NCBI RefSeq assembly: GCF_025698545.1
Contig: NC_068576.1
Span: 875,501 to 939,500 of the forward strand
DNA length: 64,000 nucleotides
Direction: 5' to 3'
Source of the DNA: Gossypium raimondii
Taxonomy: Eukaryota > Streptophyta > Magnoliopsida > Malvales > Malvaceae
Shown: piece after piece, positions 35,509-36,645 of the stretch
Position numbering within the stretch: the first letter of the stretch is position 1
Layout: each line of letters opens with the position of its first letter
Notes under the pieces: model-generated
Told to the model about the DNA's origin: nothing
Database searches by the model: none
Seen by the model: the letters and a program-made list of their open reading frames with translations, nothing else
Position numbers and translations under genes: made by a program

Positions 35509-36645
35509 TTAGTTAACAACGTAACATTTCTTCCTAATCTCTCCTGCATTCCCCGTGAGAACTCCAATGGCTCCCATCTTCTCCATTGACTTTGCAAACT
35601 CTTTGAAGAATTCCTTCGAGTCAAGCAACTTGTCAACAACATCGCGCGAGCTTTTGTTCGTCAGGAGGGCGGCATCGGACTGAAACAGACCCTTGTTTTG
35701 CTTAAGCGTGACATAATAGTTATTATCGAATGTTAGCCCGCTACCAGGATCCATCACCACGAAGGTCGTATTGTCACTGAGGCTTTGACATTGTGTCCTC
35801 AAGAAAGTTGCATAGGTTGCATTCAAGGAAGGGTCCTGATCTCCATTCCCAGTAAAGTTGTATAGCCTATTGCTGAAGGCATTGCAGTGGCCTACTCCGA
35901 TCGTATGCCCCCCTGCGTTTGAATGATTTAAGTTGAAAAGTTTCATCTTTTATCATCTAAAAATGTTGTGCATTGATATTGTACCTGATAAGACCACCAA
36001 GTCTTGCACATTAAGGCCTTTGTTAGCGAAGTTTTGGACAAGGGTGGTGAAGTTAGAGAAAGGGGAAGGAACATTAGCCAATGCCTCGGAAATTCGCGAC
36101 ACCCTACTGTCTCTTCTACCGGTAAGAACTTCCCACAATGGGGTTTGACTTACTTTGAAAGAAACAGCATCCCTAGCAGCCAAGGCCAGAACATCAGCAC
36201 ACGATACTACGTTCGGACATTTCTTCTCGACTTCTGCTTTTATATCGTCTATGACATCGAAACCAGCAAGGGTTAGGTTCGGAATCGCATCTTTCTCGGC
36301 AGTATTGTTGGTTGTCGAGTTCAATAGGACCGAAGCATCACAACCCTGAAAAGTGAAAACTTTCCAATATCATGTAACGATTTGAGACAACTTGCAGGTT
36401 CTTGTAAATGTGGTACAAATATTTAGAAGCCTTACCCTGACAAAACAATCATGAAAATGCATTCTAAGGAACCTTGCAGGCAATGTGGGATCACTGGCAA
36501 CACGTTTCTCAGTAGCATTCTTGATTATGGCTTCTGCATTAGGACATGTGTTATTGTAGAAACCCTTCTTAAGGCTACCTCCATGGCAGGTCCCAACAAC
36601 TCCAAATACTACCATGCAAACCAAAATGAGAGCCTGCCTCCTCAT
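35509..36645 (-). CDS. Class III peroxidase Px2 (PER27-like), intron 2 lost
   Basis: Secreted haem peroxidase of the same cluster. Three exons only (36645-36436, 36345-35985, 35912-35509) give 324 residues. Signal peptide about 1-23; distal R61/H65 in [16 protein letters not shown]; proximal H193 in [12 protein letters not shown]; ends 'EIRKKCYVVN'. Exons 2 and 3 of the sister genes are fused. Where Px1, Px3 and Px4 have a GTAAGC donor after ...DAVSFK, Px2 reads straight through as SFKVSQTPLWEV; 'VS' (GTAAGT) is the old donor now translated, so the protein gains one residue but keeps frame. The expected TATA box is replaced by GACAAAAT, so expression may be weaker or start elsewhere. Closest to Px3. 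All active-site residues are present, so the protein is likely functional if expressed. Confidence 0.93.

Follow-up and report, generated by a model that had tools for sequence, protein, structure and literature searches.

How did one gene in a tandem cluster of peroxidases lose an intron that its sisters kept, and what was left at the junction? The question arose from an earlier note on 64,000 nt of Gossypium raimondii DNA (C12:875501-939500; the window), in which Px2 was proposed to have lost intron 2 by an imprecise deletion. Four class III peroxidase genes lie in the window, all on the minus strand: Px1 (25874-27091), Px2 (35509-36645), Px3 (41994-43262) and Px4 (47934-49154). Their coding sequences are all open to the stop codon and specify 324 amino acids in Px2 and 323 in Px1, Px3 and Px4. 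The three sisters are each composed of exons of 210, 192, 166 and 404 nt. Px2, read from start codon to stop, consists of three exons: 36436-36645 (210 nt), 35985-36345 (361 nt) and 35509-35912 (404 nt).

Class III peroxidases are marked by a distal and a proximal histidine motif. Both motifs and the eight cysteines outside the N-terminal stretch are kept in Px1 to Px4, and Pfam PF00141 was matched by Px2 (E 3e-85) and by Px1, the two proteins that were scanned. With two introns, Px2 departs from the conserved three-intron form. This is no argument against class III membership, since 98 of the 198 peroxidase genes reported for upland cotton depart from it as well (PMC6627342). Px2 looks like an intact class III peroxidase gene within a tandem cluster. 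Its intron 1 is retained (36346..36435, 90 nt, minus strand). Its intron 3 (35913..35984, minus strand) measures 72 nt, against 131 nt in Px3, with which its first part is common, and 94 nt in both Px1 and Px4; relative to Px3, one or more further internal deletions are apparent. Px2 therefore appears to have undergone deletions beyond that of intron 2.

A GT-AG intron 2 is present in all three sisters, as had been claimed. It was located on the minus strand at 26538..26616 in Px1 (79 nt), at 42695..42765 in Px3, the nearest sister (71 nt), and at 48598..48676 in Px4 (79 nt). The corresponding part of Px2 (35985..36345, minus strand) coincides with a single exon of 361 nt that has no intron 2, against 192 + 166 = 358 nt in the sisters, so that the arithmetic of one additional codon proved correct. 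The frame is preserved with a net change of +3 nt, and F is replaced by V-S. When genomic DNA was searched with the Px2 exon (nine matches, six candidates scored), one full-length match was obtained, giving a single copy of the junction, and each of the three sisters was recovered as two pieces overlapping at the junction. Px2 is no retrocopy, as introns 1 and 3 are kept.

The Px2 protein was then compared with the whole genome (750.8-Mb assembly, 281 contigs), giving at least 174 matches; 123 of 306 first-look candidates were scored. Twenty paralogue loci, mostly matching exon by exon, were hand-picked among the matches listed. Eight further loci were picked because the match ran across the intron site, in addition to three such loci (L006-L008), and four extra loci (L045-L048) had a match that crossed or nearly crossed it. 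Because these sets were selected by match type, they show states within the family, not frequencies. Following separate alignment of the exons, exon 2 and exon 3 were found 77 to 1790 nt apart in all 20 hand-picked paralogues, and the junction bases were visible by motif scan in 11 of them. L009 to L011 gave the best three exon 2 matches of the 20; their exon 3 begins with TTT (F), that of the sisters with TTC (F). L011 carries stops within the search match and may be a pseudogene. An ancestral intron lost in Px2, as proposed before, was confirmed by its presence in 3/3 sisters and 20/20 chosen paralogues, and among the four genes of the window the loss is confined to Px2. Relatives of Px2 were found in none of the viral contigs or prokaryote genomes searched, as expected of a plant gene.

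In total, 35 loci were examined for intron 2. Twelve are without it (L006-L008, L037-L044 and L045), 21 have a gap at its site (the 20 hand-picked paralogues and L046, about 113 nt) and two were not judgeable, L047 being too broken and L048 having no exon 2 within the stretch fetched. An extra residue was found in none of the 12 loci lacking intron 2, in each of which ten residues separate the exon 2 motif's R from the W/Y of exon 3 (counted by eye in L006, where the pattern is cut differently). Since spliced intron-bearing paralogues of the GGP type, such as L012 and L015, also give ten residues (by eye), these 12 losses look precise. Px2 has 12 residues at this place, against 11 in its own subfamily (Px1; L009). 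Three of the peroxidase loci without intron 2, L041-L043 (C8:4470000-4495200), resemble one another closely and share a stretch of about 25 kb; their junctions look precise.

The Px2 junction, GTAAGTCAAACC, lies at 36142..36153 on the minus strand, a position obtained by counting 192 nt from the exon start at 36345, and codes for V S Q T. It is preceded by TTC AAA, reads GTA AGT CAA ACC, and is followed by CCATTGTGG, where CCA TTG TGG are the next codons. In the sisters, TTC AA(A/G) is followed by intron 2, which opens with GTAAGCTAAACC in all three, and exon 3 begins with TTC CAA (ACA/AAA/AGA) CC(A/C) TTG TGG. The first five bases of the sister introns, GTAAG, stand in frame in Px2. Calculated from base composition alone, the chance of this five-base match is 0.0011. 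The chance of at least 10 matches among the first 12 intron bases, 10/12 being observed, is 2.8e-5 on the same basis, a figure to be read with the caveat that an origin from exon 3, which is similar there, would give part of the match too.

Some details of the earlier reading had to be amended. The donor relic had been given as GTAAGT: GTAAG is as in the sisters, but the sixth base is C there (GTAAGC), and the relic is not verbatim. Exon 3 had been said to read FQ.PLWEV in the sisters, but Px3 reads PLWNV. The CAA codon had been placed in the next exon, directly after the donor; this is one of two readings, the origin from exon 3 being uncertain according to a breakpoint enumeration. In short, the intron start of each sister was joined to its own exon 3 at every breakpoint giving the Px2 length, and substitutions were counted over the first 15 bases. 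Breakpoints 5/6 and 12 required 2 vs 2 substitutions in the Px1 model, 3 vs 2 in the Px3 model and 4 vs 3 in the Px4 model, respectively. A simple join of any sister is at least two substitutions away from Px2, base 6 being among the changed positions whichever sister serves as model.

Because the intron and exon 3 open with similar bases, more than one breakpoint fits, and either 5-6 or 12 bases of Px2 may be derived from the intron. In the 12-base reading, which is the version drawn by the MAFFT alignment, V-S-Q-T would be all intron, at an equal or slightly better substitution count. Any join at 7-12 gives GTA AGC TAA and hence a stop in frame, unless base 7 was altered earlier, while intronic. 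Joins at 5/6 meet no stop, and the Px1 model then needs two later synonymous changes (AGC>AGT and ACA>ACC). A two-residue gap is placed there or a few residues upstream in the three phmmer alignments shown (3hdl, 4usc and 1fhf), and protein length appears to vary naturally near this site.

The reading that we favor, and hold to be very probable, is that a genomic deletion of 68-76 bp removed intron 2 from an otherwise intact Px2 after the Px2-Px3 split, so that relic bases would now be read as protein. With Px1 or Px4 as model the deletion would measure 76 bp, with Px3 68 bp. We infer that the loss happened in one step, that it went through end joining and that the relic is translated. Following the split, one deletion by end-joining of a double-strand break or by slippage would have taken intron 2 almost entirely, and with it the first 2-3 or 9 bases of exon 3, leaving the first 5-6 or 12 intron bases behind. 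The net gain of 3 nt would have kept the frame, converting K-F-Q-x-P into K-V-S-Q-T-P. The central claim of the earlier note, an imprecise loss that kept the frame, is thereby upheld, with at least GTAAG left in the coding sequence.

Loss through an ordinary cDNA was ruled out because the junction is not precise, GTAAG being retained and the F codon gone; with this route closed by the retained intron bases, what remains is a genomic deletion, through end joining or slippage. A cDNA made from a mis-spliced message fares no better: inspected by eye, none of the segments it would have to remove (breakpoints 5, 6 and 12) is bounded by GT and AG, and the preference already expressed for a genomic deletion is therefore maintained. 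A two-step course was also considered, in which reverse transcription and gene conversion with the cDNA removed the intron precisely and a 3-nt insertion with substitutions later produced GTAAGT. Precise-looking losses are common in the family, the extra residue being absent from 12/12 other loci without intron 2, and this would speak for such a course. It requires, however, that TTC became GTAAGT by chance, against the value of 0.0011 given above for five bases, and, starting from a mis-spliced cDNA, it would depend on splice sites other than GT-AG for each of the breakpoints 5, 6 and 12 (judged by eye); it is the least probable of the explanations weighed here. That an error of assembly or sequencing dropped the 68-76 bp is conceivable insofar as the junction is known from one assembly, but the junction bears bases private to Px2 and an exact frame, neither of which is expected of a random error, and we regard such an artifact as very unlikely.

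Within the favored reading of a genomic deletion, the two ends may have been brought together by their resemblance. AAAC is common to the intron start and the exon 3 start of Px1, in register, and the best joins lie beside it; at the best breakpoints themselves at most one base is common to both ends. For the Px1 model, a clean microhomology join at AAAC was rejected, since it leaves an in-frame stop and mismatches Px2 at three positions. With Px3 as the model, joining at AAACC, a longer repeat, was rejected as well, its product being two bases shorter and out of frame (by eye). As the clean AAAC join is not the best fit, joining driven by microhomology is not claimed.

The age of the deletion was estimated from the relationships among the four genes. 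At 49 informative sites, Px2 groups with Px3 at 43, with Px1 at 4 and with Px4 at 2, and for Px2-Px3 a Ks of 0.18 and a Ka/Ks of 0.37 were obtained. Barring conversion, the deletion would therefore be younger than the Px2-Px3 split. After removal of 11 ambiguous codons, parsimony places 13 synonymous and 18 other changes on the Px2 branch (three of the 18 at the junction codon, TTC vs AGT, leaving 15 without it), and 14 and 25 on the Px3 branch. On this count Px2 looks constrained, and no less so than Px3. For exon 3 alone, the Px2-Px3 Ka/Ks is 0.77, on few changes. For Px1 and Px2, Ks rises from 0.19 in exons 1-2 to 0.47 in exon 4, a hint of conversion between these tandem copies (25874-27091 and 35509-36645). 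Exon 2 of Px2 is equally near to Px1 and Px3, with 10/192 differences each. Given this equidistance and the low Px1-Px2 Ks, conversion around exons 1-2 may have occurred, and Px3 gives no secure date. As the source of the junction, gene conversion was rejected, there being no clear tract and 43/49 informative sites grouping with Px3.

Imprecise intron loss (IIL) has been described in plants and reported as not rare by Ma et al. 2015, with six cases beside 11 precise losses in tomato and potato and 17 in Arabidopsis thaliana; the variants were fixed and expressed (PMC4443532). Px2 resembles these in that an intron present in its relatives is absent, with an indel at the old site in the flanking coding sequence, and the gene is open. 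It differs from the two examples drawn in that paper, in which exon sequence was deleted, by its net gain of one codon; and the published cases are backed by RNA and orthologues, whereas Px2 is known from genome sequence alone. In Drosophila, bases of a lost intron were kept in the coding sequence of Dgri\GH15541, where short direct repeats suggest end joining (Yenerall et al. 2011; PMC3296678). Px2 likewise has intron bases left in its coding sequence. The fly case was established by comparing orthologues and Px2 by comparing plant tandem paralogues; in Px2 the kept bases are those of the donor end.

Intron loss by end joining is described as capable of being precise or of leaving a footprint, and short direct repeats of 2-8 bp at the two breakpoints are given for the microhomology-mediated form (PMC5716013); in two Dictyostelium species two imprecise losses were reported vs 643 precise ones (PMC4683709). 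In upland cotton, 100 of 198 peroxidase genes were found to have the three-intron form and 64 of 198 to have lost one or more introns (PMC6627342). Px2 belongs to the same family with the same ancestral three-intron pattern; the relevant passages of that paper count introns without describing junctions. The Px2 junction was not found in the literature by topic (neither gene name nor sequence being used as a query), which says little on prior publication. Px2 is a clean but otherwise ordinary instance of a process on record for plants and flies, and the general picture of intron loss is unchanged by it. Its value lies in the clear footprint of intron loss by genomic deletion, the other losses examined in the family being junction-perfect and therefore giving little information on mechanism.

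Px2 also offers a natural test of whether splicing ignores a donor of fair strength that lies within an exon. The relic AAA|GTAAGT is predicted to pair with the 5′ end of U1 at -5.6 kcal/mol, more strongly than the intron 2 donors of Px1 and Px3 (-4.5), and it took fifth place of 15 in a ranking that included 14 intron 2 donors (those of the three sisters and of 11 motif-scanned loci). Some Px2 transcripts might accordingly still be spliced from the old donor, using the acceptor of intron 3 or a cryptic one, which is compatible with the deletion and would make the gene partly unproductive or give another isoform. Stronger donors exist, however, in Px2 intron 3 (-7.1) and Px4 intron 2 (-9.5). 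Moreover, if the relic were joined to the acceptor of intron 3, 169 nt would be lost and the frame shifted, with a stop after six residues (RDAVSFKGGIRSE-stop), an outcome that selection should oppose, so that partial splicing seems unlikely. Pyrimidine content did not separate the downstream AGs (0.44-0.56 for exon AGs and 0.56 for the real intron 3 acceptor), and ranking by this measure was dropped because the real acceptor was no better than the others. A shade less likely still is a regulatory version, in which the retained donor would be recognised by U1 and partial splicing to the intron 3 acceptor would give a truncated message, and the output of this one tandem copy would be lowered or regulated. 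If true, a constitutive splice site would have become, through an untidy intron loss, a switch within an exon. Among the other donors compared, that of Px1 intron 3 (26278-26371) is GTAAGA, with a U1 pairing of -11.0, and those of intron 3 in Px2, Px3 and Px4 are GTACAA (-7.1). The intron 2 donors of L009 and L010, CCT|GTAAAT, pair with U1 at -1.6 kcal/mol, the weakest of the 15 compared.

Two further features of the window were recorded. A 320-bp tandem duplication is present at 32719-33365 (2.0 copies, 99% matches, with a 300-nt part identical), and by reading only the stretch around it looks like a decayed retroelement. Direct repeats at about 7190-9760 and 22370-24930 lie about 15.16-15.18 kb apart and are 79-100% identical in parts; the long open frames between them (10931-19952) suggest an LTR retrotransposon, of Ty3 type by its reading frames only.
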